Below, piece by piece: positions 28,145-43,027 of a DNA stretch of 43,027 bases. Under the pieces are notes generated by a model. It was not told where the DNA came from, ran no database searches, and worked only from the letters and a program-made list of their open reading frames with translations. The stretch's first letter is position 1; each line of letters opens with the position of its first letter. The translations under genes and the position numbers were made by a program. The stretch is from a filamentous cyanobacterium CCT1. GTDB taxonomy: Bacteria; Cyanobacteriota; Cyanobacteriia; Phormidesmidales; Phormidesmidaceae. Where the stretch lies: NCBI GenBank assembly GCA_003017855.1, contig PYER01000022.1:1-43027 (forward strand). The letters run 5' to 3'.

Positions 28145-28159
28145 AAGCGATTGGATGAG

Positions 28160-28711: not shown

Positions 28712-28924
28712 ACAGGAGTGCCCTAAAGCTTATCAGTGACTGTTCTACATGCCATCAGATGGGAAGCGAGATAATCGCAGCCCTCCAGGAGCACCACACA
28801 TCGCTGGCCTATGGTAGAACGACAGCCTTATGGACTGTGTAGCAATCAGCAAACTGAAAACTGGTATAGACTTGGTACAAGTCTGAAAACTCTTGCCTAC
28901 AAGTCTTGTATATCAAGGAAATGT

Positions 28925-28972
28925 GTCAGCTTCCCAAGCTGAATGTCGTCGGTTCGAGTCCGATCACCCGCT
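28925..28972 (+). tRNA. 3' half of a tRNA-Gly(CCC) gene (fragment)
   Basis: Anticodon stem-loop TCAGC-TTCCCAA-GCTGA with anticodon CCC, variable loop, T arm GTCGG-TTCGAGT-CCGAT, and the acceptor strand CACCCGC plus discriminator T. Upstream of 28925 nothing matches a D arm or the expected 5' strand GCGGGTG, so only the 3' half is here and it cannot fold into a tRNA. The break at the edge of the anticodon stem is a usual crossover place for tyrosine integrases. This half-gene is also the target of the CAST homing spacer (34881-34898). Confidence 0.9.
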
Positions 28973-28976
28973 TTCA

Positions 28977-28981
28977 ATTGT
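28977..28981 (+). repeat. Putative CAST target-site duplication, left copy (ATTGT)
   Basis: Five bases just outside the CAST end; the same ATTGT stands at 41621-41625 outside the other candidate end. Five-base duplications are normal for this transposon class. Confidence 0.6.
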
Positions 28982-29119
28982 TGTCCATTAAAGAATTATT
29001 TGTCCAGTTTTAAAGGATTAGTGTCCATTTTTAACGAGAGAATGCGGCGTCCAGCGATTGGGGGCCGTTTTTGCTAGGTTCGGCGAACTTTTTCACCAGT
29101 TTTAAAGAATTATTTGTCC
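28982..29119 (+). repeat. CAST end next to the tRNA, with tandem TnsB-type sites
   Basis: TGTCC at 28982, then ATTAAAGAATTATTTGTCC (28987-29005), a variant at 29006-29026 ending GTGTCC, and a full copy TTTTAAAGAATTATTTGTCC at 29100-29119. This closely follows known V-K ends (TGTAC, then repeats of the form GACAAATTATCTGTC). By gene order it is the right end (far from tnsB). Confidence 0.8.
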
Positions 29120-29211
29120 CTCTCCCCGGGTGACGGCACTCAAATCAATACACTAGATCTAGTCACGGGTAAGCTGTACTATTCTCCCAGTGAACGTTGA
29201 GGGTAAAGCTT

Positions 29212-29379
29212 ATGAGCGTGCCAGTGGCAGAATTAACGACCGAGAAGGTCAACGCAGCCATTGCTATCATCTTTGAGGTTCTAGGAGAGCCCGAGACTGA
29301 CCTCCACCGTCAAGCACTCCAGTCGTTTCAGCAGGGCAATTACCAGACGGTAAAGCGCTTGTCCTTGGAAAACCGGTAG
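29212..29379 (+). CDS. Small unknown cargo protein
   Basis: 55 residues, MSVPVAELTTEKVNAAIAII...LSLENR, probably helical. Weak GAGGG upstream of ATG 29212. No family recognised; first open frame inside the CAST end. It could be a small antitoxin-like or regulatory protein, but nothing shows this. Confidence 0.4.
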   Translation: MSVPVAELTTEKVNAAIAIIFEVLGEPETDLHRQALQSFQQGNYQTVKRLSLENR

Positions 29380-30009
29380 TCCTAAAAAGGTAAGGATGGT
29401 TGTGATCCTCTTTCTGAAAGGGGTTCGACCAATGAAGCTAGCTTCTGAGTGCCGAAGTATCCTGGTTATTCACAGGATTTCAACCCACAATCCACGGGAA
29501 AATCAGTGTTCCAGCCCTCAACAAGCATATATACTTAGCGCCTTCGAGAAGGATGTAAAACTTGATATCCCTTGCTGCATATAGGATTCAGTCATCCTTA
29601 CCTATGGGGCACTACCGGAAAACCTAAGCGATTTCTACTGCAAAGCTCTGGGCTACCTTGGCGGGGCGCTAAAACTTACCCCCAATACAGACACTATTTT
29701 GGCTGAGTCTGCGAGGGTTGCGGCTGACCATGCTCGCCAAAAGACATTAGAGCATTTGGGTGTTCAGATCTCACAAGCCTTAAGCTAGAGGCTTGTAGGG
29801 TTTAGGCGACTTGATTAAACAGCGCCACCTCACGGACTGGCACTGGCTAGCTAAAGTAGGACGGTTTCTAGAACGCCTGCTGCACAAGGGTTCTGAGCAA
29901 CGAGAAATCAAGAATCATACTTTTAGAGACCAGTGCCCAGACTTTTAGAGACCAGTGCCCAGATCTCCCCAGCAGCAATGGCTCGGTATCCAGAGTAGGC
30001 GGCTTTATA
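29380..30009. other. 630-bp cargo stretch with gene remnants
   Basis: No intact gene is supported. At 29591-29788 an open frame with coding-like composition (GALPENLSDFYCKALGYLGG ... ISQALS) lacks a start codon and follows a stop, so it reads like the 3' end of a lost gene. A 45-codon TTG frame at 29811-29948 is doubtful. A perfect tandem repeat lies at 29919-29962. Confidence 0.4.
29919..29962. repeat. Two perfect 22-bp tandem repeats
   Basis: Unit begins ACTTTTAGAGACC and ends GTGCCCAG; copies at 29919-29940 and 29941-29962 are identical and directly adjacent. They lie 48 bp downstream of the pentapeptide gene's stop. Function unknown. Confidence 0.85.
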
Positions 30010-31371
30010 TCAGTGGCCAATATCCTCCCCCGTATCTGGATCGATTCCTAGTTCTTCACAGTCACGGTTCGGGTCAAGGGTAATGCCGTCAGGTAAGGTA
30101 GTACGGCAGATTTTAGAATGCATAAGTTGCATCTTTGTGAGGGATGTTTTACTGAGATCAGCATCATTTAAAATAGTTTTCCTTAAGTTAGTTAAAGTGA
30201 AGTATGAGCCACTGAGTGATGCTCCACTTAAGTTGGCACCTCTTAAGTCAGCTCTAAAAAATTCTGCTTGGTTAAGCTTGGCATTTTTTAGATTCACTTT
30301 TTTGAAGGAAGCATTATGAAAATAAGCATATTCAAGATCAGCATCTTCCAGGTTTACATATCTAAACTTTGCTCCACTAAATTCAAAGTGCCGTAGACTG
30401 AACCCCCTCATGTTAACTCCAGTAAATTTGGCATTGGAAAAGTCAGCATTGCCGCTAGAGTCCAGACTGTCTAAATTACTGTTATCGCTAAAAATGGTAT
30501 TTTCTAGATTAGTTGAAAGCAATTGAGCTTTTTTGAAAATAGCACCTCCTATTTTTGCCCCCTCAAAATTTGCCCAACTTAAATCAGCACCGCTGAAATC
30601 AACATCCCTAAGGTCAGCACCGCTAAAGTCAGTCTTCAAAAGCTTAGCATTGCTAAAGTCAGCACCTCTGAAATCAATGCATTTAAGACTGGTACCGCTC
30701 AAATCAATATTCCTACAGTTTGCACCACTAAGACTAAGCTTTAACTCACTTATGACCTCAGAGTCTATTAGAAACAATATAATGTTTCTTTTTAGATCGC
30801 CGTCTTTTTCAAATTTCCTCAAGATGGATAATGTTCTGGCTCTGATTATATTGACAGTTGCTGACAACTGAGTTTCTTGTTCAGGTGTGAATTTCTGTAT
30901 CGGTGGGTCATCTACTTTCTCTTTGTTCGAAGCAAATAAAATTGTGTCTTTTGCTACTAAATTTTCATTAGCTAAAATCGACGAGAGGCGATCAAAGTAA
31001 ACTTGAAGAAAATCCTCCCTGGCTTCCTTTGCCAATCGTTTTTGTTGCTGTTGCTGAAATATATAGCCTAAAATAACTAATGAAACTGGAATCCCTAACA
31101 ACTCAAGACTGTCCCAAAGTGTTTTTCTCGGTTGTCGAGTTATTTGTGTTGTCTCCACAACGTTCCCGTCCGCATCTCGTTTATGGAGAGTAGTAGAAAC
31201 TGTACTCCCTTCACCTAGCCCTGACCATTCTTTAGCATATAGCCACTTCACTGCGAAGAAACCAATAGCTATTGCTGTGACAGCTACGCCCAAAACAGAA
31301 AATTTAACAAGTATAGAAATAAAGCGATTCTGTGCTTTCTCAAGCTGAGTCAAGGAGAATGATAAAGGCAT
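30010..31371 (-). CDS. Membrane-anchored pentapeptide-repeat protein
   Basis: 453 residues. The N-terminus has two transmembrane segments (about 22-48, FSVLGVAVTAIAIGFFAVKW, and about 88-107, LLGIPVSLVILGYIF), followed by a charged helical region (110-210). From about 215 to 430 there are some 40 pentapeptide repeats of the A(D/N)LxX type (FSGADLRDVDFSGADLSWANF...), which fold into a right-handed quadrilateral beta helix. In the CAST it is cargo. Pentapeptide proteins occur as DNA mimics, in toxin systems and as scaffolds; a membrane-bound version could be a defence or signalling effector, but no direct evidence exists. Confidence 0.87.
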   Translation of the reverse strand: MPLSFSLTQLEKAQNRFISILVKFSVLGVAVTAIAIGFFAVKWLYAKEWSGLGEGSTVSTTLHKRDADGNVVETTQITRQPRKTLWDSLELLGIPVSLVILGYIFQQQQQKRLAKEAREDFLQVYFDRLSSILANENLVAKDTILFASNKEKVDDPPIQKFTPEQETQLSATVNIIRARTLSILRKFEKDGDLKRNIILFLIDSEVISELKLSLSGANCRNIDLSGTSLKCIDFRGADFSNAKLLKTDFSGADLRDVDFSGADLSWANFEGAKIGGAIFKKAQLLSTNLENTIFSDNSNLDSLDSSGNADFSNAKFTGVNMRGFSLRHFEFSGAKFRYVNLEDADLEYAYFHNASFKKVNLKNAKLNQAEFFRADLRGANLSGASLSGSYFTLTNLRKTILNDADLSKTSLTKMQLMHSKICRTTLPDGITLDPNRDCEELGIDPDTGEDIGH

Positions 31372-31594
31372 CGTAAGTTCTTATCTAAAAATAGTCCGGA
31401 CACTTTTTTGGTCAAGCGCTGAAATCCTTAGATTTCTCATTGATCGATCTGCTGTGGAAGAGGCCTTAATCCTTCATTCTACCGTTGGCAATGAAAAACT
31501 GTCTGGAGTATTTTATCTAAAATAAAAGTATTTTTATCATATGTTACCTGCTTCGATTTAATTTAACTCCTGATAATCAACCTCTTGGAATCCT

Positions 31595-31832
31595 TTAATA
31601 ACACCATGGTAATACCGCAAGCTGAACCTCAACCCGATCAACTCGCCCCGTCTTGACAAGGGTCTCCGCCTACTGCAATACCGTCTGAGTCGCCTTCTCC
31701 TACTTGTCGGGCGGGGTAGCCCCTTCTTCAGCACATTACCCACAGCTTCGCCCGCACCGCTTCCCGCTCCGTCCAGTCAGTGGTGACATGCTCCCGAGTC
31801 GCCTTAACCAAATCCTGGGCAATGGTCTTGTA
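31595..31832 (-). pseudogene. Decayed 3' end of a type I restriction gene (hsdR)
   Basis: Read leftward in pieces, it gives KTIAQDLVKATREHVTTDW, then TEREAVRAKLWVM, then after a frameshift PPDK*EKATQTVLQ*AETLV and KTGRVDRVEVQLAVLPWCY, ending at a stop at 31595. This matches my memory of HsdR C-terminal ends; two in-frame stops and the shift show that it is dead. Nothing of hsdM or hsdS is seen. The identification rests on recall of the family and needs alignment. Confidence 0.6.
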
Positions 31833-31978
31833 ACTTTAAAGGCAGGTCATAGTCTTCGGTTGTGTAGGTGCAGTCTTTCTACCAATTCCATGACAGGATA
31901 TTGCCATGGCGCATTCTGGGTTTTAAAACAAAGAAATGTAAACAACCTGGTTTCAATATAAACGTCCGGTTTTGTTTA

Positions 31979-32113
31979 ATGGACTCAGTATTAGAGATTA
32001 GTGAAGTTGCTGAGCGGATGTTGTCTCTAGGTAAGTTTTCGGGAATTTTGATAGAGAGCAGCTTTAGTCTGGCAGCCCCTGCAAAATCGATAAGACTAAT
32101 AGTACTACTTTGA
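31979..32113 (+). CDS. Possible small protein before the glycine-zipper genes
   Basis: 44 residues, MDSVLEISEVAERMLSLGKF onward, ending 17 bases before the next start. No strong ribosome binding site; composition is protein-like. May be a leader gene of the same operon or noise. Confidence 0.35.
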   Translation: MDSVLEISEVAERMLSLGKFSGILIESSFSLAAPAKSIRLIVLL

Positions 32114-32130
32114 AGTTGGAGATGCCCCAT

Positions 32131-32649
32131 ATGACCAGTCCACAACCTTCCAAAGGCCAAGCTAACCTACAAATCGCAATTTGGAATAAACAAGCTGAGT
32201 CTTCGACTAGCGAAGAACTGTATGTCAGAATACAAAAGCTTGGCCTGCCGGAGGAAATAGTGACTAGGCTTCATGACTTACTACTAAAAGTGCAGCAAGT
32301 CGCGGGAAGAGTTATTCATATCGGGAAAATAATTTTGATCAAACTGCTCGAATTTGTCGAGGAGCATTTCTTCCTAGTTGCTGGGGCAGGAATTGGCGCT
32401 GTGCTAGGTGCTGCATTGGCAGGGCTAATAACCTCAACGCCTTTTGTTGGGCAATTTCTGGCACCTATAGCAGCTGCCCTAGGATTAACCGTTACTGCCC
32501 TAGGGGCAATTGCAGGCAACGAATTAGATAAGGTTATCCCTAATTTTGGCAAAAGCCTTATTGATGCAGCAAAAGAATTTTTTAAGCTTTTTGCGAGTAT
32601 TTTGACTGCGATCTTTGGAGATCAGCAATCAATCGTCTCTATTGCCTAA
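32131..32649 (+). CDS. Cargo membrane protein with glycine-zipper hairpin (1)
   Basis: 172 residues from ATG 32131, with GGAG eight bases upstream; an ATG at 32122 and a TTG at 32110 are in frame but poorly placed. A soluble helical N-terminal part (1-60) is followed by two hydrophobic segments rich in Gly and Ala, VAGAGIGAVLGAALAGL and FLAPIAAALGLTVTALG, then an amphipathic C-terminus. Small-residue hairpins of this kind occur in pore formers, holins and lysis-type effectors. It precedes a second, similar gene by 29 bp. No family recognised; an abortive-infection or bacteriocin-like effector is conceivable. Confidence 0.6.
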   Translation: MTSPQPSKGQANLQIAIWNKQAESSTSEELYVRIQKLGLPEEIVTRLHDLLLKVQQVAGRVIHIGKIILIKLLEFVEEHFFLVAGAGIGAVLGAALAGLITSTPFVGQFLAPIAAALGLTVTALGAIAGNELDKVIPNFGKSLIDAAKEFFKLFASILTAIFGDQQSIVSIA

Positions 32650-32678
32650 AATTCATATCATTGTAAGGTGGATCTAGA

Positions 32679-33236
32679 ATGACGAAATTAAAAAAGCCTA
32701 GCAAGAAAGATATTCTTGAAGCCATTGACAAGCTTGAGAAGAATCCCAATGCTCGCACTAAAATTTTAGGAGAGATGGGGGTGGCAGGGATGGGAGCTGC
32801 TGGAGTTGGGGCGTTGGCTGCTTTTTTTGGTGCTAGTGTAGCCCCTATTCCAGTAGTCACTGCACTTACAGGGTTTGGGATGGTTGTCGCGGCTCCGGTA
32901 ACTCTAGTAGCTGGTGCTGCAATTGCTGGAGGTGCTGCTGCATATGGGTTGACAAAATTAGCAACCAGCGGAGCATACGATGAGGGTAAGCAGGAAGAAA
33001 TCAAACAAAAGCTAAAAGACATATTGCAAGAGTTTGAGATAGAAGAGCATAAGGAAAACTTAACTGAAGAAAACAAAAATTCCTTCATTATCTTCCTCAA
33101 AGAACCTCTTCAAATCGATCTAATTACGGCTGAACAAGCTCAAGATTTAATTGAACTTGTCGAAAAGGGCGAAATGTCATTAGAAGAAGCATATAGTCTT
33201 CTTGGCGATATCATAGAAGAAACCAAAGGAAAATAA
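32679..33236 (+). CDS. Cargo membrane protein with glycine-zipper hairpin (2)
   Basis: 185 residues, AAGGTGG before the ATG. A basic N-terminal helix (TKLKKPSKKDILEAIDKLEK), then two Gly/Ala-rich hydrophobic segments (about 36-58 GVAGMGAAGVGALAAFFGAS; about 65-95 GFGMVVAAPVTLVAGAAIAG), then an acidic, Lys/Glu-rich soluble tail (105-185) with repeated helical stretches. The layout mirrors the gene before it, so they may form a two-protein membrane complex. No known family recognised. Confidence 0.62.
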   Translation: MTKLKKPSKKDILEAIDKLEKNPNARTKILGEMGVAGMGAAGVGALAAFFGASVAPIPVVTALTGFGMVVAAPVTLVAGAAIAGGAAAYGLTKLATSGAYDEGKQEEIKQKLKDILQEFEIEEHKENLTEENKNSFIIFLKEPLQIDLITAEQAQDLIELVEKGEMSLEEAYSLLGDIIEETKGK

Positions 33237-33264
33237 ATATTAATAGTGGTTACCTGATCAGCAC

Positions 33265-33468
33265 CTAGTAATCACACTGAACTCTAGTAAAAACAGTTGG
33301 ACCTTCGACTTCTTTAAGCGCTTCTTCACCGAATTTGTTAATAAGGATGTCAAGAGTCTTCTGACTACAAACCGTTGAACGATTGGATTGCGAAATGTTA
33401 TAGTCACTTCCTTCCGTCAGGTCTGCGTCTTGACGAAGGGTTTCAGCGATTTGTTCTTTAGTAATCAT
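33265..33468 (-). CDS. Small unknown cargo protein
   Basis: 67 residues, MITKEQIAETLRQDADLTEG onward; AAGGA seven bases before the ATG at 33468 makes it a likely real gene. Mixed alpha/beta composition, no signal peptide, no recognised family. Convergent with the second glycine-zipper gene, 28 bp apart; it could be an immunity- or antitoxin-like partner, but that is only position. Confidence 0.52.
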   Translation of the reverse strand: MITKEQIAETLRQDADLTEGSDYNISQSNRSTVCSQKTLDILINKFGEEALKEVEGPTVFTRVQCDY

Positions 33469-33741
33469 CTGGTGATCCTTCTGTACGTTAAGGCTTAGGC
33501 ACGAATTGTCAACGGGTCATGATTATTGTGAACAGCAGGGGACTCGGCCCCCTCATCCAGAGGCTTAGGAAGCCAGAACGATGGTAGCGGATTTTAGTCA
33601 AGTCTGGGCGGGCATAGCCGGTGGGATCACCCCCCTAGCCACTTGGAATTCTCCTTCTCAGGATCTATATCGCTAAGTGTAGGCTGTTCAGCATTGGTCT
33701 AAGCGAGACTCTACGGCACTTCCTGACTCAACGTCGCAGCG

Positions 33742-34119
33742 CTAAACATTCTCCTCATCCCACTCCATTTCCCGCTTGATATCATCCCAAAGCTCTGGCC
33801 GAGTATCCCGAAGGGCATCTGTATTGGCCATGAGCTGAGATAAAAACACCGACAGCTGCATTGCCTCAAGCTGTTTGTAGGTTTGCAAAGCCAATGTCCT
33901 TGCCCTGTAAGCACACGCCCCAGAGTGAACCGTATACACCGTAGTCCAGTCCAAGTCAGTGATAGGCACATTATATACCTCTCTCCGAGACTGGATCCTG
34001 ACCGGGTAAAGCGCTACAGCAAGGTCTGAGTCTTCAATGATCCCGCCACAAGAGGAACACCTCAAAAACAGTTTTAGGTTGGCTGCGTCCCCATCCCATT
34101 CAACAAACAATTTCAACAT
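33742..34119 (-). CDS. Unknown protein with a CxxC pair
   Basis: 125 residues from ATG 34119 (MLKLFVEWDGDAANLKLFL); 34137 is an alternative. CSSCGGIIEDSD suggests a small zinc or redox site near residue 23. The rest is mixed alpha/beta with an acidic C-terminus (WDDIKREMEWDEENV). Divergent from the XRE regulator (65 bp between starts), an arrangement typical of a gene and its controller. No family recognised. Confidence 0.55.
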   Translation of the reverse strand: MLKLFVEWDGDAANLKLFLRCSSCGGIIEDSDLAVALYPVRIQSRREVYNVPITDLDWTTVYTVHSGACAYRARTLALQTYKQLEAMQLSVFLSQLMANTDALRDTRPELWDDIKREMEWDEENV

Positions 34120-34184
34120 TGGGCTAAGTCTCCGCAAATATCCGATTTTGGGATATTTTAACAGCTGATTGTAGCTTGCTCGTC

Positions 34185-34424
34185 ATGAGCAGCTCAGTCT
34201 ATTCACTTCGTTACCAACAGTTCCTCGCCCGGCTGAAAGCTGCCCGCCTAGACGCCAACCTCACCCAGCAGCAGGTTGCGGCTCGCCTCAGCGTCCCTCA
34301 GTCCTTCATCTCCAAGTGCGAGTCCGGCGAGCGACGCGTCGACATCATCGAACTCCTTGAGTTTGCCTCAATCTACGACAAGCCTTTAATTTACTTCGTA
34401 GACTTCGAAAGCCCCTCTGAGTAA
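34185..34424 (+). CDS. XRE-family helix-turn-helix regulator
   Basis: 79 residues from ATG 34185 (MSSSVYSLRYQQFLARLKAA); TTG 34176 is in frame. The HTH_3 fold covers about 10-65: LKAARLDANLTQQQVAARLSVPQSFISKCESGERRVDIIELLEFA. It is a compact single-domain repressor, divergent from the CxxC gene and within the cargo close to the CRISPR array. V-K systems often carry a small repressor (CvkR or Arc types); this one is not of those families but could fill that role. Confidence 0.85.
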   Translation: MSSSVYSLRYQQFLARLKAARLDANLTQQQVAARLSVPQSFISKCESGERRVDIIELLEFASIYDKPLIYFVDFESPSE

Positions 34425-34507
34425 GGCTCAAGAAGCTGGGAGAAGATTAACGCTGAACGGCTTCAAGAAAATTGAGTACCCTTGTATCAAGTAGCTAGAG
34501 GTGCCCC

Positions 34508-34813
34508 ATGCTGACAGAAGATCTTGATGACGTTATGAAACGTTTGCTCGGAAAGGTAGCAGAGTTCTGCTTGCAAGGCCAGACTAACGAAGCCAAAGAG
34601 CTCGTTGAGAGCTTTTCGGAGAGGTTGGCTGAAGCTGCTACCACATGGAAGGGAAATGGGATAGGTTATGCCCCAACGCTCTTTGACTGGGAACCTCAGC
34701 CATACATTATGAAACCCGGAGAGCCGGTTGACCCTACTAAGTTAGATGTTCCTCAACTCGAAAGCGTAGGGGAGTCGCGATTGCATCCCGCCTACCGAAA
34801 CGTTGACAAATGA
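34508..34813 (+). CDS. Unknown cargo protein
   Basis: 101 residues. GAGGT stands just before ATG 34508. Helical N-terminal half (DDVMKRLLGKVAEFCLQGQTNEAKELVESFSERL), Pro-rich C-terminal half (YAPTLFDWEPQPYIMKPGEPVD). No family recognised. It lies 83 bp after the XRE gene and may be co-transcribed. It is followed by a long hairpin at 34820-34859. Confidence 0.6.
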   Translation: MLTEDLDDVMKRLLGKVAEFCLQGQTNEAKELVESFSERLAEAATTWKGNGIGYAPTLFDWEPQPYIMKPGEPVDPTKLDVPQLESVGESRLHPAYRNVDK

Positions 34814-34819
34814 CCTCCT

Positions 34820-34859
34820 CGATAGCTTATGCAGGCTTACCACTGCAGAAGAGCTATCG
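34820..34859. terminator. Long stem-loop between cargo and CRISPR transcripts
   Basis: Nested arms CGATAGCT/AGCTATCG (34820-34827, 34852-34859) and TGCAG/CTGCA (34830-34834, 34843-34847). It has no strong T run, so termination is not certain. It separates the rightward cargo gene from the leftward crRNA transcript. Confidence 0.5.
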
Positions 34860-34880
34860 CAGTCAAAAATCATTCCTAAA

Positions 34881-34923
34881 TTTGGGAAGCTGACGTTCCT
34901 TTCAGCCTATCTACCCCTTCGAC
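34881..34923 (-). CRISPR. Delocalised atypical repeat (34899-34923) with tRNA-Gly homing spacer (34881-34898)
   Basis: Read leftward: a shortened repeat starting GTCG and keeping AAGGGG and the terminal GAAAG of the array repeats, followed by GAACGTCAGCTTCCCAAA. Seventeen of these 18 nt equal the D-arm/anticodon segment expected for tRNA-Gly(CCC); 13 (GTCAGCTTCCCAA) are directly seen in the fragment at 28925. Such a split-off crRNA aimed at a tRNA is how V-K CASTs home to their chromosomal site. Confidence 0.88.
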
Positions 34924-34958
34924 TGTGCTCAGAAGTGATTTCAAAGGGCAGCCACCCT

Positions 34959-35141
34959 CTTTCCGCCCCTTGAGAGACGCAAACAGACTTGCGACTTGAT
35001 CTCTTTGTATCGCCTCAGGCACTCCTCGGGCGCCTTTCCGCCCCTTGAGAGCCGCAAATAGACTTGCGACCTCAGTGGAAAAAGGTTCGACGAAACTGCG
35101 ATCGCTTTCCGCCCCTTGAGAGCCGCAAATAGACTTGCGAC
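34959..35141 (-). CRISPR. V-K CRISPR array: three 37-nt repeats, two internal spacers
   Basis: Repeats at 34959-34995, 35034-35070 and 35105-35141. Read leftward they start GTCGCAAGTC and end AAGGGGCGGAAAG, the GAAAG ending of V-K repeats. Spacers: 34996-35033 (38 nt) and 35071-35104 (34 nt); a further spacer-like 35-nt segment (34924-34958) joins the array to the atypical repeat. The repeat at 34959 has two changes against the others, as expected for the terminal repeat. The array is transcribed leftward, like cas12k. Confidence 0.95.
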
Positions 35142-35334
35142 CCCGCACACTTCAATTCCTTGCACAGCCGGCCTTTCAGCTAACGATCTGGCAAACCTCT
35201 GATATTCAAAGGTCTACCCATTCAAAACCAAGTGATTTATCTCACCTAATGCCTTGAAAGTCAGACTGGTTAAGGGATTGAGATTTGGCAAAGGCTCTAG
35301 GCAAATTGCCAGAGCTTAGGTTTGCCAAAAGTGA

Positions 35335-35575
35335 TAGGCCCCCTTGCTCGGGGCTGTTTGGTAGCTGCCACGACACGAACACCTGTATCCTTACAGTTAG
35401 GCCGGAAACCTAACCATAAAAACATTGCCTCCTCGATGCTAGGCGCGCGACCATGCACCATCTATGGCAAGCCATAGAAGAGACGGACAACTACACGGGT
35501 AGGAAAGCAATAAAACTCACCCCTACTTTTTACCTGTTCTTAGAGAACCGGCGCGCATTGAAAACATATTAACTT
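35335..35575 (-). ncRNA. tracrRNA of the V-K CAST
   Basis: Located between cas12k and the array, same direction. Landmarks shared with the Scytonema (ShCAST) tracrRNA, as I recall it: TTAATA near the 5' end, GCGCGCCG, ATTGCTTTCCTACCC, GTGGCAGCTACC, and a final hairpin CCCC-GAGC-AAGGGG (35337-35354). The GCCCC tract can pair with GGGGC of the crRNA repeat. Ends are approximate. It forms the dual guide with the crRNA on Cas12k. Confidence 0.82.
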
Positions 35576-35601
35576 TTCAAGGTGCAAGCTTTTGTATCGA
35601 G

Positions 35602-37695
35602 CTATAGAAAAGCCGAAGCGATCAGCGCCAACGCTTTCTCCTGCTCAGATCCCTGTTTAGGCTGCCTTTCCTGCCGAATCGTCAGCCCATGCTGCCTAGC
35701 GCACTCCTTCAGGTATTTCAGCAATCGGCCATAGCTCCAGCGATGAAACTCCAGACGGTACTGCTTGGCATATTTGTCTTGCAACTCCTTATGTTTGGGA
35801 TAGCGGCGTTCTGCCTCCGCCTGCACACTGCTCTCTACAATCTCGCGAATATTTCCTAGGCTTGGTAGCACGATCGAGCCTGCCTGCCATTTTTGGGCTA
35901 GCTGAATGACCCTAGCCGCTAGCAGACGGTCTAAATAGTCTCCCAAAGCAGACTCAGCATCCTGTTGGCGATAGTTGTCGTGCTTCTGATCCTCGGGACG
36001 TTGGGACAGGTTATAACGCCGCTGGCTACGCCAACGGTTCACTAGCCGGCATTGCTCCTTCTGCCGTTGAAGTAGGCTGCGATTTGGGTATGTCTTTTTG
36101 ATGCTACGGACCTTGAGTAGGGCTTTTGTTCTTTGACAAGCCAAAGCTCGATCGGTTGAGCGATCTAGAACCACCGCCGTCACCGGCTCATGGCGGCTGA
36201 GGCTAATCCCCACAACAATATCCGGATTGCCATGATAGAGATTGGCACTGGGGCGCTCTGGTGGCTGCCGCCGCAAACGTTCTACACTAGTCTTGTTGCT
36301 TTTTAGATTTTTTTGCTGGGTTTTGGTCAGTTCTTTGCCAACAGATGCAGCAACCAATTTCTCTGCTCTGCTGGCTTTCTCGCGCCGAACCTGTTCAGAG
36401 CCCTCTTTTGTAATGAGCCTAGTATCAACCGTGCAGTGCAGATACAAACGATGAGTCTGCCAGGGAGCATCATAGTCAGTAATCTTATCTAACTGAGCCT
36501 TGGCCTTCTGCTTATGTTTTCTGCGCTTCACAGCAGCCTGAGGGTCTTTCTTCCAAACTAAGCAAGCCGAACGCAGGGCAAACAGACTCATGCCAAATTT
36601 ATCTTCCTCGGCTGTACTCTCGTGAGTTATGTAGTCCTCAGCAAATTGCTTGAAGACAGGTAACTGCCTGCGGTCACACTGGATGCTCATGGTGTGCTTG
36701 CCTAAACCATTAAACTGGACTTGAATCTTTTCCTTGGGCCTTTTTGAGGATTTGCGTCTTTTGGATGGCTGACCGTCTGCTTCTGAGTTAGCGATGATAG
36801 ACCAGCGCAAGTCACTAGAACTACCCCACAGAATGGGATAAGGCAATGGATTCAAGAGCGGCAACTGTTTTTGAGCTTTCCACTGTGACCAGTCCTCTTC
36901 ATCGATCGGGCTCAGGTCGACATCAGGAAGAGCGATTGCTGCTCCTAGTGCCTCCAGATATCGCTCGTCGGTGGGATCTCGCCCCTTTGGCAAGCGACTT
37001 TGCAGTTGATCTTGTAGCCGCTCCACTTCAATACGCTTCCGGTCAATCCGAAACTGGATCACTTCCGGGTTTTCATCCTCCTCGACGACCTTGAGGTCAT
37101 TCCTGAGCAGATAACAGATAGCGCGGCGTTCAAGTTCGTCAGAAGCTGCCTCGTAGGCGTCTAGTAGAAAGCCCATCAACGGATTACCCCGTCGTTTACC
37201 CTTCCTTGACAAGAAACTGCTACGGCCCTGCTGAGTGTCTGTAGACTGCTCTGCGTGTTCTAGTACCTGCTGTGCCCTGGCCTGGACGACTTCTAGACTC
37301 AAATCACTAGTAGGCATAGCCTGCAGATCAGCTTCGATCACCTGCAACCAGCGAAGCTTGCCAACCATCTGATGGTGTCGGTGCTTTTGCAGCGCTAGCC
37401 AAGACTTAAAGGCGTAGGTGACCATCAACTCTGCAGACGTGAAGAACCGTCCAGGCAACGCCGCATAAACTGAGTTCTGCTTCAGGGGCCTAAGAATACT
37501 TTTCACTTCATCTCGGGTTATCTTTCCCTGCTGTCGCCAAACCTCAAACTTCGGATGCTGGGAGACTAGTTCAAGCAATTCGTTGACCAAGGCCGTGTAG
37601 GTGACCATGGCATTCCAAAGGAAACGACGAGTCTCAACCTTGACGCACAGACAACACAGAATTGTCTTCATATAACCTGGTATGACCTGGTCCAT
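35602..37695 (-). CDS. cas12k: Cas12k, nuclease-dead RNA-guided targeting protein
   Basis: Pseudonuclease effector that binds the crRNA/tracrRNA pair and an NGTN PAM, then recruits TniQ and TnsC. ATG 37695 is chosen for the GAGG eight bases upstream; homologues align best from the Met at 37671. About 697 residues, near the usual 640-690. The N-terminal segment LWNAMVTYTALVNELLELVSQHPKFEVW and GRFFTSAELMVTYAFKSWLALQKHR is characteristic. The RuvC-I strand reads IVVGISLSRHEPVTAVVLD, with Ser where active Cas12 enzymes have Asp, as in all Cas12k. It follows tniQ directly, with no cargo in between. Confidence 0.94.
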   Translation of the reverse strand: MDQVIPGYMKTILCCLCVKVETRRFLWNAMVTYTALVNELLELVSQHPKFEVWRQQGKITRDEVKSILRPLKQNSVYAALPGRFFTSAELMVTYAFKSWLALQKHRHHQMVGKLRWLQVIEADLQAMPTSDLSLEVVQARAQQVLEHAEQSTDTQQGRSSFLSRKGKRRGNPLMGFLLDAYEAASDELERRAICYLLRNDLKVVEEDENPEVIQFRIDRKRIEVERLQDQLQSRLPKGRDPTDERYLEALGAAIALPDVDLSPIDEEDWSQWKAQKQLPLLNPLPYPILWGSSSDLRWSIIANSEADGQPSKRRKSSKRPKEKIQVQFNGLGKHTMSIQCDRRQLPVFKQFAEDYITHESTAEEDKFGMSLFALRSACLVWKKDPQAAVKRRKHKQKAKAQLDKITDYDAPWQTHRLYLHCTVDTRLITKEGSEQVRREKASRAEKLVAASVGKELTKTQQKNLKSNKTSVERLRRQPPERPSANLYHGNPDIVVGISLSRHEPVTAVVLDRSTDRALACQRTKALLKVRSIKKTYPNRSLLQRQKEQCRLVNRWRSQRRYNLSQRPEDQKHDNYRQQDAESALGDYLDRLLAARVIQLAQKWQAGSIVLPSLGNIREIVESSVQAEAERRYPKHKELQDKYAKQYRLEFHRWSYGRLLKYLKECARQHGLTIRQERQPKQGSEQEKALALIASAFL

Positions 37696-37705
37696 CGCTT
37701 TCGCC

Positions 37706-38239
37706 TCAGTAACGCTTCTGCCGCTTTGCCATTGACTCAAACTTCATGCCACACCGCTTACAAGCACCTTCTACCCACTCAACCGGCAGTGCAAGCTTCT
37801 GATCACAGGCTGGACAGCGGGAAATTAGCCTCAGCCGATGCTCCTCGCATCCTTCTACCGATTCGTATTGCCAATGAATCCGGTGGTGCGGGCTATCCCT
37901 ATAACAGGCCCCACAGAGCCGCATGGAACGCATTACCAGATGCTCTCCTTTAGCAGGCAACATTGCTTGCAGCTGCTCCACGTCCAATCTCACCACTCTT
38001 CCCACAGCAGCCAGCTCCTGCTGACTTGGAAATGGGTTAAACCGAAACTTCTCCCACCTTGATAGCGCAGGCCCAATTCCTGCCACCTCGCTTAATGTTG
38101 TTGGTGCTGAGATACTGTTTGCCTCTTTGCGCCGTAAACGCCCAAAATAATGGCTTATACTCTCCCCTTCGTAGGGCTCAACATACTCCAGCCATGGATC
38201 CAGACTATCCAATTCACTTAGTTTATTGAACTTTGGCAT
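37706..38239 (-). CDS. tniQ: TniQ, target-complex adaptor
   Basis: 177 residues, the short V-K type. PYEGESISHYFGRLRRKEANS is the TniQ N-terminal motif. Zinc ribbons follow: LCGACYRDSP...GCEEHRLRLISRCPACD and ACKRCGMKF. TniQ bridges Cas12k, tracrRNA and the TnsC filament. Starts three bases after the tnsC stop; its own stop lies 10 bp before the cas12k start. Looks intact. Confidence 0.93.
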   Translation of the reverse strand: MPKFNKLSELDSLDPWLEYVEPYEGESISHYFGRLRRKEANSISAPTTLSEVAGIGPALSRWEKFRFNPFPSQQELAAVGRVVRLDVEQLQAMLPAKGEHLVMRSMRLCGACYRDSPHHRIHWQYESVEGCEEHRLRLISRCPACDQKLALPVEWVEGACKRCGMKFESMAKRQKRY

Positions 38240-38242
38240 TCC

Positions 38243-39112
38243 TCATTCCTTTTCTTCGCTTTGAAAAATACGAGGTATATTGCGGTTATTCAGCACTGAC
38301 ATAACTATTTCCTTAGTGATTTTGTAGGTTCCCTTCTCCAGAGCTAAGATCGCAGCTTTTTTCAGAATTTCGAAGAGAGGAACCTTCAAACCTCCAGTTT
38401 TTTTGAATAATTCTTCAGCAGTACTTTGATTCAGGAGCTCAGATTCCGCAGGCCACTTCAGGAACTCTTTTTCCCAAGATTCGATCACATCCACCATTTC
38501 ATCCCTTGTCATAGGAGGGTAGTTATGGAAATCCAAAAATGAATTTCCGACTCGCTCCCGATTACCTTTCTGCAAGATTTGGTGTAGACAGTAATTTCCA
38601 GACAAAATAGTTGGGATCTTGAGTATGCTGTAAACCTGAACTAGTTCGCAGAATGCTTCGTAAGTTAGAAACTCAGCATCATCAACAATGAGCAACTGAG
38701 TGCCAAATTTCCTTAACTGGCCATAAGTCCTTGGTCGCTTATCTCTAAGCTTGCCTGTTGTTATTTGGTGATTCAGTGCCTGCAGCAGCACCATATAGAG
38801 ATTGCTAGGGCTGCAATTAGAATGCAGTTGAATGTAAACTACTAGCACTGGCAGTTGGATTATTGTTCCTCTACGCTTTACATGCTGCATTCGATAGTAC
38901 TGACAAGAGTCCGAGATTCCCGAACCTTGAGCAGATAAGATATATCCAGAGTTGCCTGATTGACGTTGATTGTCTAACCACCTATGAAGTGATATATCTC
39001 TGTCTGTTAATAATAGCGGCCCGCCGTCGCGAATTCGCTTAATTTCTGCTTCATGATCAAGCGCTGGACTCGACGGTATTTGTTGCTCTATAACACGCTG
39101 AAGTTGTCCCAT
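38243..39112 (-). CDS. tnsC: TnsC, AAA+ regulator with degenerate ATP site
   Basis: 289 residues; normally an ATP-dependent filament that carries the transposase to the Cas12k complex. The fold and order of V-K TnsC are kept: YILSAQGSGISDSCQYYRM, LPVLVVYIQL, TQLLIVDDAEFLTYEAFCELV, IPTILSGNYCL. But Walker A (GxxxxGKT/S) reads SAQGSGIS, with Ile66 (codon ATC at 38915-38917) for Lys and Ser60 for the first Gly. Walker B reads DD (144-145) for DE, and sensor I is GNYCL for GTDRL. The frame is intact and tightly spaced in the operon (6 bp from tnsB, 3 bp to tniQ), so it is translated but may not hydrolyse or even bind ATP in the usual way. Confidence 0.92.
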   Translation of the reverse strand: MGQLQRVIEQQIPSSPALDHEAEIKRIRDGGPLLLTDRDISLHRWLDNQRQSGNSGYILSAQGSGISDSCQYYRMQHVKRRGTIIQLPVLVVYIQLHSNCSPSNLYMVLLQALNHQITTGKLRDKRPRTYGQLRKFGTQLLIVDDAEFLTYEAFCELVQVYSILKIPTILSGNYCLHQILQKGNRERVGNSFLDFHNYPPMTRDEMVDVIESWEKEFLKWPAESELLNQSTAEELFKKTGGLKVPLFEILKKAAILALEKGTYKITKEIVMSVLNNRNIPRIFQSEEKE

Positions 39113-39118
39113 AATTGC

Positions 39119-41020
39119 TTACCAATTATCGGTTAAGTGTTGAACCCAATTGGTTACAGCGACTATGGCTGATCGTTTTGGCTTCAGCCGCTTCTCCGGT
39201 TCTTGAGCTACAGGAGTAGAGTTTGCATTGACGCCTGCTTGCTTCGACTCCTGACGCTTCATATCAATCACGTTAGAGAGGCCTTCAGAACAGCCAGCCC
39301 TATCGTGTTCCTTGTTCCGTCTTTGCTTACGTCCTTCCCGAACTTTATTCTCTGCGAATTCATTGCGATCTAAGACATCTCTGAGAATTGAAGACTGATC
39401 AATTGCTTTTCCAGCTTTACGAATTAGCTGATGCCAAAATCTTAACGTCTTTAAAGATAGCTTCTCTTCCTTACGATCCCTCATCTTGAGAACGCCTATA
39501 TATTTAGAGGCAATACCAGCTTTCTCCTCTGTATAAGCCAAAATCTGGACGATATTACTTGGATCGTATCGAAGGCTAATCTTCTCAGTTTCACGACCTA
39601 AAAGGCAGTCACCTTGATAAATTTCGTTCAAGAACTGCACAGTTCCGAATTTCTGTACTTTAGAGCTTCCGTGTCGTTTGAGTAAACACAAATCTAGCTT
39701 TCTTTCATCAGGTACATTCGGTGGTTCAATTAATCTATCTTGCCATCTCTGAGATCGGGTCTGATTTGGTACTCGTGGATAAAGGTGCCAGTTATAGTGG
39801 TTGACAAAATACCGAACAAGCTCTCTTTCCAGTTCTTCCACCGTAATACAAGCATACTTTTGAGCATTCTTAGGGCGATTTTGGACATTTGATCCTTTGT
39901 ATCCTGGTAGCGCACGTAGAACTTCTTTATTGATTCTATCGAATACTGCTTCAACCAATCCTCCTTGAGATGGATAAGCTCGGTATCGCAATTGAAAACC
40001 TAGTTCAGCAGCAATTTGTTTCAAATGCTGGGACTTAAATTCTTTGGCACGGTCTGTCATTAAATACTTTGGAATACCTTGACAGTTCCATTCGTGCTCT
40101 AAACCGTATTCAGGACCGTATTTCTTTGGCAAAATTGCTTGACGAAATGCCAAAGCAACCTCATGAGAGCCGGGCTGACTAAACCCCAAATAAAACCCAA
40201 CTATGCAACCGGACGTACACTCGATAATAACCGTTAGAAATGGGTAGCCAATCTCATTCCCATCCTTGTCTATTAAAAGTATATCGAGTCCTGTATGATC
40301 TGCTTGAAAAAGATCGTTGGTATACGGAAAGTATAAAATTCCGTCAGTAGTCATCACGAATTGTTCAGGCCCTTGCCCCGGATGCCTGGCTTTACGCTTC
40401 TTCTGTTCTAAGTAGGCATTGATTGTGTCGTAGACTGAGACATGGGATCTAGGGGGCTTTACAATTCCTGCCTCTAGCTCTTTTTTTATTGCGCCTAAAA
40501 GTACGTTAATTTTACTCTTTTTGTTTTCTTCAGCAGCGCCTAGCTTTTGAGCATAATAGCTAAACAATTCGTTTAGCTTATCAGGGTCTTGCCACTCAAT
40601 TGATTCAAGCCTGTCGGTGATGCCACGAATTAGCACCCAGGTTTGAGCTCGGCTATTTTGTCTGCCTTCTTTTTGTAATCGCTTGTAAATCTGTAACGTT
40701 AAAGATCGCCAATGCTTAGAAATATGACGAGCTTTGCCTTTATCAGAACGTTCAGAGCGGGTTAATCCATCAATCCCGTCTCTCCTAAAAGCACGTAAAC
40801 GGCGTCTGACAGTTCTTTTACAAACACCTAGTTCCTTGACAGCAATTTCGATACGCTTCCGCTTTGTTAAACCATCTTCAGCATTTAGAATAGCTTGGAT
40901 GAGTTCTAGTTCTCTTCTTTGTTCAGGAGAAAGATCATCATACAAGACACTTTTCTGCTCAGCCTCAGCAGTATTCTCAGCATTTTTGTCAAATGCCTGA
41001 TCAGAAGTCGATCCGTCCAT
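39119..41020 (-). CDS. tnsB: TnsB, DDE transposase
   Basis: 633 residues, the strand-transfer enzyme that binds the end repeats and joins the ends to target DNA. The N-terminal helix-turn-helix domains span about 30-190 (KRKRIEIAVKELGVCKRTVRRRLRAF). The catalytic core has Asp241 (QADHTGLD), Asp323 (LMTDRAKEF) and Glu357 (GGLVEAVFDRI), 34 residues from the second Asp, the RNase-H-fold DDE triad of V-K TnsB. The C-terminal tail (about 560-633) is charged, fitting the TnsC-interacting hook. All catalytic residues are present, in contrast to TnsC. Confidence 0.95.
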   Translation of the reverse strand: MDGSTSDQAFDKNAENTAEAEQKSVLYDDLSPEQRRELELIQAILNAEDGLTKRKRIEIAVKELGVCKRTVRRRLRAFRRDGIDGLTRSERSDKGKARHISKHWRSLTLQIYKRLQKEGRQNSRAQTWVLIRGITDRLESIEWQDPDKLNELFSYYAQKLGAAEENKKSKINVLLGAIKKELEAGIVKPPRSHVSVYDTINAYLEQKKRKARHPGQGPEQFVMTTDGILYFPYTNDLFQADHTGLDILLIDKDGNEIGYPFLTVIIECTSGCIVGFYLGFSQPGSHEVALAFRQAILPKKYGPEYGLEHEWNCQGIPKYLMTDRAKEFKSQHLKQIAAELGFQLRYRAYPSQGGLVEAVFDRINKEVLRALPGYKGSNVQNRPKNAQKYACITVEELERELVRYFVNHYNWHLYPRVPNQTRSQRWQDRLIEPPNVPDERKLDLCLLKRHGSSKVQKFGTVQFLNEIYQGDCLLGRETEKISLRYDPSNIVQILAYTEEKAGIASKYIGVLKMRDRKEEKLSLKTLRFWHQLIRKAGKAIDQSSILRDVLDRNEFAENKVREGRKQRRNKEHDRAGCSEGLSNVIDMKRQESKQAGVNANSTPVAQEPEKRLKPKRSAIVAVTNWVQHLTDNW

Positions 41021-41477
41021 GATTTATTTAGCCCCTTTGTTTTTCCAAAATCGCCACTAGAGAAAAACACGTCTTTGAAAAACAAGACATGCGACTTCTC
41101 CAGACTTCAAGGCCCAAAGCCCCTTTCAGGAGGGATTGCTAGGGATACTATCTGATCTAATGGGAGTTGTAAATAGCCATCTTATGATTTTCCTCAGTAT
41201 AAATTGCCAGTCATTGAGAGGCTTGTGTGCGGATAAAATAACTGGGCATTGCAGACCTCACTCTTGGTTTTTAGATACTTTCGTTATTCTGATATCAGAA
41301 TAATGAAAGTATTTATCTCAAAGGCTTTTGGATAAGTTTCCAGATAAAGAATTTCTTGGTTCTGATCTAGTCAATTTCAAAGCCGTGATTCACAAGCAAG
41401 ACGGCTGAAAGGCTTGCCTATCAAAACTTTCAGCACTCTCTCGCTTGTGAGTAACGTTATGATAAAGACTTAAAAAC
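41021..41477. promoter_or_regulatory. Upstream region of the tns operon
   Basis: No gene. It contains a near-perfect palindrome at 41275-41312 whose arms carry the same ATTATTCTGA core as the end repeats, about 255 bp upstream of tnsB; probably a TnsB site pair or an operator for the operon. The promoter itself was not located with confidence. Confidence 0.5.
41275..41312. repeat. 38-bp near-perfect palindrome
   Basis: Arms ATACTTTCGTTATTCTGAT / ATCAGAATAATGAAAGTAT, one mismatched pair, no spacer. It shares the ATTCTG core with the end repeats. Confidence 0.85.
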
Positions 41478-41620
41478 CTTCTATTATTCTGAAAGACGAC
41501 TTCCATCACTCTTCTAGAGAGCTTCCATTCCTTTAGAAGAGGAATTCCATCATTCTGTGAAGGGTCTTCCATTATTCTGGAAGTCTTCTTTCAGAATAAT
41601 GGAAGCAGAATAATGGAAGA
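41478..41620. repeat. CAST tnsB-side end: 18-bp repeats phased every 22 bp
   Basis: Copies of a site close to CTTCCATTATTCTGAAAG begin at 41478, 41500, 41522, 41544 and 41566 (same strand), then inverted copies (CTTTCAGAATAATGGAAG) at 41588 and, overlapping, 41602-41619. The first six starts are exactly 22 bp apart. By position these should be TnsB binding sites of the left end; the motif differs from that at 28982. Confidence 0.78.
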
Positions 41621-41625
41621 ATTGT
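41621..41625 (+). repeat. Putative CAST target-site duplication, right copy (ATTGT)
   Basis: Identical to 28977-28981 and directly adjacent to the last end repeat. Confidence 0.55.
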
Positions 41626-41804
41626 AAGAAGAGATTTGCTAAGATTCGTAAATATGGGAAGCCTTGGTAGTCAAGGAAAGCGCTGGAGAGCTTTTAAGGT
41701 ATAGCAGAACTCATTTGAGTAAAGTACATCACCAAGATTTGAACCCGTGGCAACCTCTGCCTCTGCTCTGTAGGGTGACCAGGTTAATGAACTTGGCGAT
41801 TAGT

Positions 41805-42308
41805 TCATCGCCTCATCTGCTTGAAGCCTTGCAAAACAGTAGTTTGACAAGCCTTTGAACCTTGCCTTCTGGTTGACTCCTCAACCAATGCAATAAAGCC
41901 GCTAGCTAGGCTTTCTCTTTCGTATCTGACTAGATAGGACAAGGCATTTGAGGTCAGTGACTTTGTCTCTGGATGTGCAGCGATTGCCTCAAGGGTTAAA
42001 AAACGCAGTTCGTACGCCCAATCTTCCCATTGGCTAGGGTCTAGGACTCCGAAGTAGGTATCGGCCTCGACGGCGCAGCCAACAACCCAGTTGACGAAGA
42101 AATGGCTATAGGCACGCTCCCAGGTGTGCTTCAGGCGCAAGTCGCCAAACAAGCTACGCACTTCTGGCAAAAAATTCTCTTCCTGCACTACAGCCATTCG
42201 CGATCGGTGGGCCATTGCCCAGTAGCGATGCACGTACCGCTTCAGCGCCTGGATGGTGATCAGGCCTTTGGTCAGATTGAGCGTTGGCCTGGGGCTAAAC
42301 GTTTCCAT
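41805..42308 (-). CDS. Unknown protein outside the CAST
   Basis: 167 residues, ATG 42308. Largely helical, aromatic-rich (YVHRYWAMAHRSRM; WERAYSHFFVNWVVGCAVEADTYFG), no signal peptide, no family recognised. Divergent from the tyrosine recombinase (about 55-120 bp between starts), so it may be an excision or control protein of the integrative element, but nothing in the sequence proves this. Confidence 0.55.
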   Translation of the reverse strand: METFSPRPTLNLTKGLITIQALKRYVHRYWAMAHRSRMAVVQEENFLPEVRSLFGDLRLKHTWERAYSHFFVNWVVGCAVEADTYFGVLDPSQWEDWAYELRFLTLEAIAAHPETKSLTSNALSYLVRYERESLASGFIALVEESTRRQGSKACQTTVLQGFKQMRR

Positions 42309-42362
42309 ATACAGAGTCTAGATGATTCCTTCTACACATGAACAACAATGTAACGACCCCAA

Positions 42363-43027
42363 GTGGCTAATAACTACAACCATTTTGACTCCAAGTTGCA
42401 AAAATACAAGCCTGAGGAGCCGCTGCCAATGGTTGCGGCTGGCTCTGGGATATCTCAGACCTATACCGATGTCTTTCAGCAGCACTGGGATGAGTTTGTA
42501 GACGATAAGGGGCAGCGGCTAGAGAGCCCCTTCATCATCGTGAGCATGTACAACCCGATTCCCAAGAAAGTGCGCAATTTTGGGCGCAAGATCATTGGCC
42601 GCCGGGAAGCTCAAGAGTTCGTCACGTTTATGCTGCAAAGTGCTTCTCCTGCCACCATCAAGAAACAGGTGATCATCCTGAATGACTTTGGCAACTGGGT
42701 ACAGCAGAATAAGCTGGTGGACGCAGGCTGGGAGAACCCCTTTACTGGGCTGACGGAGATGTGCCACCCGGTGCCGCCGCTCAAAGTTCCGCCCTTTAGT
42801 GAGGCGGAAATTAAGCAGATTATCGGTACCTTTCGCGACGATCGCTACTACGCCCACTACACCGACTATGTTCGGTTCTTGTTTATGACGGGCTGTAGAA
42901 CCAGTGAGGCCATCGGTCTCCAGTGGAAGCATATCCGTCGCGACTGTACTGGGATTACGTTTAACGAAACCCTGGTGCGTAAGGGCACCGGCACGGCTCG
43001 CCTGCGAAAAGCCACCAAAACGAATCG
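42363..43027 (+). CDS. Tyrosine recombinase / phage-type integrase, N-terminal part (runs off the window)
   Basis: Partial. Starts are GTG 42363 or ATG 42429. After an N-terminal segment (about 1-70) comes a SAM-like core-binding domain (ATIKKQVIILNDFGNWVQQN onward), then the start of the catalytic domain with PFSEAEIKQIIGTF and YVRFLFMTGCRTSEAIGLQWKHI, where the Arg is the first of the R-H-R-Y residues. The rest lies beyond the edge. It probably belongs to an integrative element that uses the tRNA-Gly as its attachment site, given the tRNA 3' half 13 kb away across the CAST (about 0.8 kb without it). Confidence 0.88.
   Translation, partial: MANNYNHFDSKLQKYKPEEPLPMVAAGSGISQTYTDVFQQHWDEFVDDKGQRLESPFIIVSMYNPIPKKVRNFGRKIIGRREAQEFVTFMLQSASPATIKKQVIILNDFGNWVQQNKLVDAGWENPFTGLTEMCHPVPPLKVPPFSEAEIKQIIGTFRDDRYYAHYTDYVRFLFMTGCRTSEAIGLQWKHIRRDCTGITFNETLVRKGTGTARLRKATKTN

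Follow-up and report, generated by a model that had tools for sequence, protein, structure and literature searches.

Can a CRISPR-associated transposon (CAST; CRISPR, clustered regularly interspaced short palindromic repeats) of type V-K still place its insertions by guide RNA when its TnsC has lost the binding site for adenosine triphosphate (ATP)? The question is raised by a 43,027-nucleotide (nt) stretch of the filamentous cyanobacterium CCT1 (contig PYER01000022.1; hereafter the window, meaning this whole stretch), in which tnsC (38243..39112, minus strand, taken from the open reading frame call) encodes a V-K TnsC homologue devoid of the Walker A Lys, the Walker B Glu and the trans sensor Arg. 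We hold it probable that the window protein belongs to a TnsC lineage that works independently of ATP and still supports guided insertion, the ATP independence being deduced from the residues that have been lost.

In ShCAST, the V-K system of Scytonema hofmanni, TnsC forms ATP-bound filaments that are trimmed by TnsB-stimulated hydrolysis; a non-hydrolysable analogue leads to untargeted insertion, and filaments and trimming are held to decide the place of insertion (PMC9876797). V-K TnsCs that lack a typical Walker A, the same phenomenon, are mentioned in one sentence of a 2024 review and are thus already in print (PMC11406308); the passage says nothing on lineage, numbers, selection, evidence of mobility or mechanism. 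Among the matches listed in a literature search, whose coverage leaves out most subscription papers, there was no account of the lysine-less lineage, its activity, its mobility or its mechanism.

The ATP site of the window TnsC

The window tnsC is a single uninterrupted frame of 289 amino acids (aa), full length as the earlier note on this DNA had described it, and sits between tnsB and tniQ with cas12k beyond, all four genes on the minus strand. The protein matches the PADLOC model TnsC_0_V-K (E 7e-42) and exceeds the cut-offs of both Pfam AAA_22 and TniB, showing homology over the AAA domain, and a profile of seven TnsCs including the window protein retrieves ShTnsC (E 4e-45).

ShTnsC has a GKT Walker A and a DEAD Walker B. 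Its residues Q185 and R189 are said to recognize the nucleotide-bound state, and K103, K119, T121 and R182 are DNA contacts (PMC9876797). In the window protein the degenerate Walker A or P-loop (38909..38935, minus strand; residues 60-68, S-A-Q-G-S-G-I-S-D) places Ile66, encoded by ATC at 38915-38917, opposite K66 of ShTnsC, and Ser opposite the first P-loop Gly at position 60. The degenerate Walker B (38666..38695, minus strand; residues 140-149) reads LLIVDDAEFL against MLIIDEADRL in ShTnsC, with Asp145 standing for the catalytic Glu, and the residues aligned with the trans nucleotide sensors Q185 and R189 are R and S. The alignment with ShTnsC thus confirms the Ile, the Ser and the DD pair that the earlier note had picked out from the letters. 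The same note had named two findings that would overturn its view, an alternative Walker A and homologues with a normal GKT: the window TnsC sequence contains no other GK[ST], and its closest homologues (60%, 46% and 42% identity) likewise lack the Walker A Lys, with GK[ST] rows falling in other clades. AlphaFold, run on the window TnsC together with a single homologue, gave a model whose mean predicted local distance difference test score was 52.6 and which was set aside and not used.

The lysine-less TnsC lineage

When 388 genomes of the class were searched with a profile of seven lysine-less TnsCs, 20 places, spread over 16 genomes, scored above 230 bits and all further ones 186 bits or less; the Walker A Lys is missing in 20/20 of the former. 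A second sample, 217 genomes from the family of genome G181, contributed 30 places in 26 genomes at E <=1e-60; the two samples are not independent draws, one being a class and the other a single family. Plasmid records of Gloeothece verrucosa PCC 7822 and Trichormus variabilis were added, four of the five matching plasmid records being lysine-less and the fifth, from Calothrix sp. NIES-4105, carrying GKT. A contig scan of genomes with the window TnsC alone gave no relative, the scan with four sequences gave one locus (Pantanalinema sp. GBBB05), and a search of viral contigs gave two weak relatives.

Residues were counted, in ShTnsC numbering, over 45 TnsCs from 38 cyanobacterial genomes; partial or broken copies of G320, G364 (its second), G517, G580, G495 and G555 stand outside these counts, and G435 was kept despite a broken frame (140 aa). 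Position 66 is Leu in 41 rows, Ile in 2 and Val in 2. At the position of Glu145 there are Asn (31), Lys (5), Asp (4), Tyr (4) and one gap, and at that of R189 Ser (25), Thr (16), Ala (2), Asn (1) and one gap, so that neither Glu nor Arg occurs in any of the 44 readable rows; Gln185 is retained in only 2 of 44, and Gly65 is replaced by Asp in 15 of 45. The equivalents of the DNA contacts K103 and K119 are gone in 45/45 and T121 is Thr in 12/45, while the Arg at R182 depends on the alignment (34/45 in the residue-count alignment vs 7/40 in the tree alignment). In contrast to ShTnsC, therefore, every readable row of the lineage has lost Lys66, Glu145, R189, K103 and K119.

In the maximum-likelihood phylogeny (78 TnsCs), a single branch with support 100/98 sets the 40 lysine-less rows apart; the trees were built without G435, the identical copies of G579 and G450, and the poor rows L061, L019 and L023. 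When the Walker A, Walker B and sensor columns were removed (86 rows, quick method), three groups appeared and the lysine-less rows again stood together, with a Shimodaira-Hasegawa-like approximate likelihood-ratio test (SH-aLRT) value of 99. These comprise (i) a canonical group of 37 rows, with K66 in 37/37, the Glu in 36/37 and R189 in 37/37; (ii) the lysine-less group of 40 rows, in which all three are missing; and (iii) a group S of nine rows (L027, L028, L030, L031, L172, L173, L174, L175 and L179) with GKS, in which K66 is present in 9/9, Asn replaces the Walker B Glu in 9/9 and R189 is found in 0/9. On these alignments and trees, loss of the ATP-site residues is a clade-wide property of a monophyletic V-K-type TnsC lineage, and the earlier suspicion of lineage evolution rather than sporadic mutation was well founded, all 45 family members lacking the Lys and forming one clade.

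Group S and the lysine-less group are joined against the canonical rows with SH-aLRT 94, on a branch that is not starred and in a tree with no outgroup root; the position of clade S is tentative because the tree program warns of long branches. TnsC of clade S is predicted to bind ATP and not to hydrolyse it, and the clade is possibly an intermediate to the lysine-less one: since it keeps the Lys without the Glu and the Arg, it suggests that hydrolysis, and with it the trans Arg, was lost before ATP binding.

The ratio of nonsynonymous to synonymous substitutions (dN/dS) has a median of 0.108 and a range of 0.055-0.302 over 193 pairs with dS between 0.02 and 1.2, which places the close relatives of the lysine-less TnsCs under purifying selection, as judged from codon comparisons.

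Guides, duplications and gene sets of the elements

In V-K systems the anchor guide comprises a truncated repeat and a 17-nt spacer, and its protospacer adjoins the left end on the outer side, in most cases within a transfer RNA (tRNA) gene (PMC9938897). Eighteen Cas12k-side loci taken as linked to lysine-less TnsCs were scanned for GAAAG, or one of three variants, followed by 16 nt that match the opposite strand downstream with at most one mismatch; in 17 of them the lysine-less TnsC lies on the same contig, 5-55 kb away where both are complete, and in G550 on another contig. An anchor guide was found in 15 of the 18 loci, 14 of these adjoining an end of the type of the lysine-less clade, and the protospacer-adjacent motif (PAM) is GGTA in 15/15; that of ShCAST is GTN. 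With GAAAG alone, 468 sites gave 16 matches, namely the 15 and one judged to be chance, against one in the reversed control and none in the complemented control. This chance match, in Gloeothece 7822 with PAM AGTG, was left uncounted. ARAGORN placed a tRNA at the protospacer in all 14 loci scanned (11 Ala, 3 Gly), G364 lying outside that scan. From the TGT of the element end to the first protospacer base the distance is 53-62 base pairs (bp) in the 14 loci and 61 in the window, compared with 59 and 61 bp in two canonical elements and 60 bp in one of type S (five comparator loci were scanned and distances taken for three). G026 and G550 gave no guide match at one mismatch or fewer in 16; at up to three in 17, G550 shows a GGTA PAM and a distance of 54, and G026 the spacer of the window with an altered target. 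As far as sequence matches can tell, the lysine-less elements carry guides that match the adjoining tRNA, with the expected PAM and similar spacing. In eight loci of the G181 family (L152-L159), the distance from the element end to the protospacer start is 54-55 bp, shorter than in most other members by roughly half a turn of the helix.

A tnsB-side end could be recognized in 7 of the 12 lysine-less elements inspected, and six of the seven have identical 5-bp flanks (G431, G577, G500, G207, G008 and, with ACAAT, G364); where the motif matched twice, in G431 and G008, the nearer match was taken and not the outer one, and G364 was left out of the spacing counts and kept among these six. In G364 (L160, 3531-3700), a canonical-like CAST end borders a tRNA, and the lysine-less element with its ACAAT duplication sits 93 bp within that end, one CAST thus occupying the end of another. 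Elements with a lysine-less TnsC accordingly resemble ShCAST in their CRISPR array, tRNA-directed anchor guide, end distance and 5-bp duplication, and in the gene set and order tnsB-tnsC-tniQ-cas12k (V-K order as given in PMC9938897); from their ends and flanks they look mobile.

The smallest form is a 4.0-kb element with tnsB, a lysine-less tnsC and small genes (L034, L035, L036, L132-L134, L137 and L138), whose T. variabilis copies gave no tniQ or cas12k match. The T. variabilis records hold five 4,005-bp copies, identical base for base, at three sites that each show a perfect duplication (TCAAC, CCAGG and AATGC); G450 holds three copies, of which two are the same over 3,975 bp and one has the perfect duplication ACTTG, so that the minimal element was counted at four sites with perfect duplications. 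Identity of copies and flanks shows that this TnsB+TnsC derivative has multiplied. Its 180-aa gene found no match in a Pfam search. Tn5469, a small cyanobacterial Tn7-like element without evident target specificity, is comparable to the 4.0-kb element, with the difference that Tn5469 is described with one TniQ (PMC11406308) and the 4.0-kb element has no TniQ match.

The window itself presents the full gene set. PADLOC V-K models match all four proteins, with TnsB, TnsC and TniQ in the order expected for V-K: tnsB (39119..41020, minus strand) encodes a DDE transposase (ShTnsB, E 1e-97; PADLOC TnsB_0_V-K), tniQ (37706..38239, minus strand) a 177-aa protein (Pfam TniQ; ShTniQ, E 6e-53) and cas12k (35602..37686, minus strand) a 694-aa protein (NCBIfam V_Cas12k, E 2.5e-226; ShCas12k, E 6e-103). 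The D, D and E of TnsB, which we take to be the catalytic residues, align with those of ShTnsB, in agreement with the intact triad noted earlier, and its C-terminus bears by eye a hook-like motif, TNWVQHLTDNW. Also by eye, this motif is of a DWNQ...DNW type in the lysine-less lineage vs a DYDQLRDDYGW type in three canonical rows. Cas12k proteins linked to lysine-less TnsCs do not form one clade in the best tree, which requires two changes (0% of bootstrap trees have one), and the starred branches force only one. A larger Cas12k as a partner trait was rejected, because lengths overlap (655-808 aa in unbroken linked proteins vs 625-677 aa in others).

Downstream of cas12k lie the CRISPR array (34959..35142, minus strand), with three repeats of about 38 nt, and the anchor guide (34882..34907, minus strand), formed by the truncated repeat GGCTGAAAG (34899-34907) and the 17-nt spacer GAACGTCAGCTTCCCAA (34882-34898). 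The spacer matches 17/17 an intact tRNA-Gly(CCC) gene on contig C465 of the same genome, with GGTA adjoining, and 13/17 the cut tRNA in the flank of the window; the related element in G026 has an identical spacer, with a target altered in a similar way. The spacer also recurs, together with end-like repeats, on another contig of the window genome (L193, G000:C332), where it may mark a further related CAST or a fragment. The left end (CRISPR and tRNA side, in the naming of PMC9938897; 28982..29118, plus strand) shows TGTCCATTAAAGAATTATTTGTC and a second repeat at 29101; its first 23 nt are shared exactly with the end of the TnsB+TnsC element from T. variabilis. Beyond it, on the anchor protospacer side, stand the 3' half and 3' flank of tRNA-Gly(CCC) (28925..28978, plus strand), identical over 54 bp to the intact region on C465 (L194), the 5' half being gone and replaced by other sequence. 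The simplest reading of the cut tRNA is that another element, e.g., an integrase island, would have entered it after the arrival of the CAST.

No end-motif match was found upstream of tnsB before the contig end (43027), so the tnsB-side end of the window element probably lies beyond it. The description of the CAST as otherwise intact thus holds for TnsB, TniQ and Cas12k, and not for the tnsB-side end, which was not found, nor for the tRNA, which lacks its 5' half. A 22-bp repeat array at 41478-41628 was rejected as a transposon end, having no counterpart at the other end and differing from the end motif found; the region 41278-41628, upstream of tnsB, comprises imperfect palindromes of the TTCCATTATTCTGGAAG type at 22-bp spacing, which differ from the transposon end and are perhaps the operators of a regulator. 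Within the presumed element, also upstream of tnsB, an open frame at 42363-43025 runs past the contig end and resembles by eye a tyrosine recombinase. The gene for the trans-activating CRISPR RNA (tracrRNA) is expected next to the CRISPR array (PMC9938897); an Rfam scan of 28000-43027, tracrRNA included, gave no match.

Other TnsCs, rival explanations and mechanism

A canonical-TnsC profile (E <=1e-20) was run on 37 genomes with a lysine-less TnsC, and in 15 of them (G008, G050, G151, G238, G267, G464, G435, G405, G406, G431, G458, G508, G472, G550 and G450) it found no V-K-like TnsC beyond the lysine-less genes; several of these are drafts, but G008, G450 and G464 consist of 2, 3 and 5 contigs. 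In G320 the profile matched nothing, and in other genomes it did detect S-type proteins.

A number of observations weigh against an ATP-independent TnsC that supports guided insertion. A further TnsC match, and with it possible action in trans, exists in 21 of the 37 genomes including that of the window, and the profile missed divergent lysine-less genes (G172, G320 and one of G262), so that it could likewise overlook an additional TnsC if that protein is very divergent. G008, G151 and G435 each encode a further Cas12k for which no partner TnsC was detected. Of the 20 cas12k genes assigned to lysine-less TnsCs, four are broken (G026, G008, G238 and Gloeothece 7822). The guide of G364 fits a canonical-like end at 54 bp and not the end of the lysine-less element, which is 147 bp from the protospacer. 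The flanks of G508, one of the seven elements with both ends, are unequal, as are those of two of the three G450 copies, one G450 copy has a split tnsB, and five of the 12 elements inspected gave no tnsB-side end. Only 31 sequences, almost all belonging to a single family, enter the dN/dS pairs, and synonymous sites of the window and G026 are saturated, so that the estimate speaks for those close relatives and not for the window gene itself. Finally, a Lys at position 68 in 35 of 40 tree rows could serve as a substitute ligand. As a separate observation, cas12k is split or interrupted in the linked loci L164, L165, L033 and L080.

This Lys68 underlies the main rival, which we consider unlikely: nucleotide would still be bound at a non-canonical site, involving for example Lys68 or new contacts such as the Arg-Asp pair at 38-39, without hydrolysis, and would support a nucleotide-dependent filament. 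R38 is present in 39 of the 40 lysine-less tree rows and D39 in all 40, canonical rows being mostly different there, and clade S retains GKS without the Glu and the Arg. Yet position 68 is Asp in the window and G026 and Glu in G130 and G183, Lys is missing throughout 60-68 in four of the 40 rows (the window, G130, G183 and G008), and the loss of R189 (44/44 readable rows) and Q185 (42/44), with Asp for Gly65 in 15/45, argues against a retained site. Far less probable is an inactive TnsC whose gene is kept for another role, e.g., RNA-guided binding or inhibition, the insertions either predating the loss or being the work of a canonical TnsC that acts in trans. Help in trans is conceivable for the window copy, whose genome encodes canonical TnsCs on contigs C290 and C76; however, the lysine-less TnsC is the only one that the profile showed at E <=1e-20 in the 15 genomes given above, among them G431 and G008 with their 5-bp flanks and G450 with its three copies, the clade is old and diverse with the gene still in frame, and the recent T. 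variabilis copies carry tnsB, a lysine-less tnsC and small genes with no tniQ or cas12k match.

V-K TnsB has reportedly performed untargeted, TnsC-independent insertion in vitro, which would fit a TnsB of this lineage that acts without TnsC, the latter being dispensable or merely a regulator; purifying selection on TnsC in close relatives, its retention in the smallest element and the conserved guided spacing make this more improbable still. A sequencing or assembly error, or a mutation of one strain, has practically no standing: the window is a single draft contig, but the loss is common to 45/45 homologues in 38 genomes, which already refutes it. Between the two outcomes that the earlier note had left side by side, a dead transposition system and an ATP-independent TnsC, the clade, selection, guides, duplications and multiplied copies back the latter, its ATP independence being read from the residues; a dead element is not favoured because of the anchor guides, the spacing and the duplications.

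In this TnsC lineage the whole nucleotide site has been rebuilt, with a branched aliphatic residue for the P-loop Lys, the catalytic Glu gone and the equivalents of Q185 and R189 mostly or wholly gone; ATP would not be bound, because Lys, Glu and R189 are absent. The protein would still bridge TniQ-Cas12k and TnsB, as the retained spacing and C-terminal TnsB motif suggest, and from that position would set the distance to the insertion site. Length control could not use TnsB-stimulated hydrolysis and would have to come from limited assembly, which would form and stop without ATP binding or hydrolysis and would probably be a short oligomer seeded by TniQ/Cas12k or TnsB, not a long trimmed filament as in ShCAST. 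In the minimal element, TnsB and the lysine-less TnsC would insert without a recognized target selector. To the wider proposal, that a nucleotide-free AAA+ fold serves as both ruler and adaptor between CRISPR effector and transposase in the whole lineage, that it arose stepwise, with hydrolysis and the trans Arg going first as in clade S and ATP binding later, and that it has given rise to minimal two-protein transposons spreading with no known target selector, we incline only slightly.

IS21 IstB, MuB and similar proteins are AAA+ partners that recruit a DDE transposase and are known as ATP-dependent; the lysine-less TnsC would do the same job, a likeness of role. If the proposal is true, guided insertion proceeds without an ATP site, and neither target choice nor spacing needs ATP. 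The role of ATP would become directly testable by comparing natural systems, for which the series canonical, clade S and lysine-less offers a ready set of proteins, and simpler insertion tools could follow.
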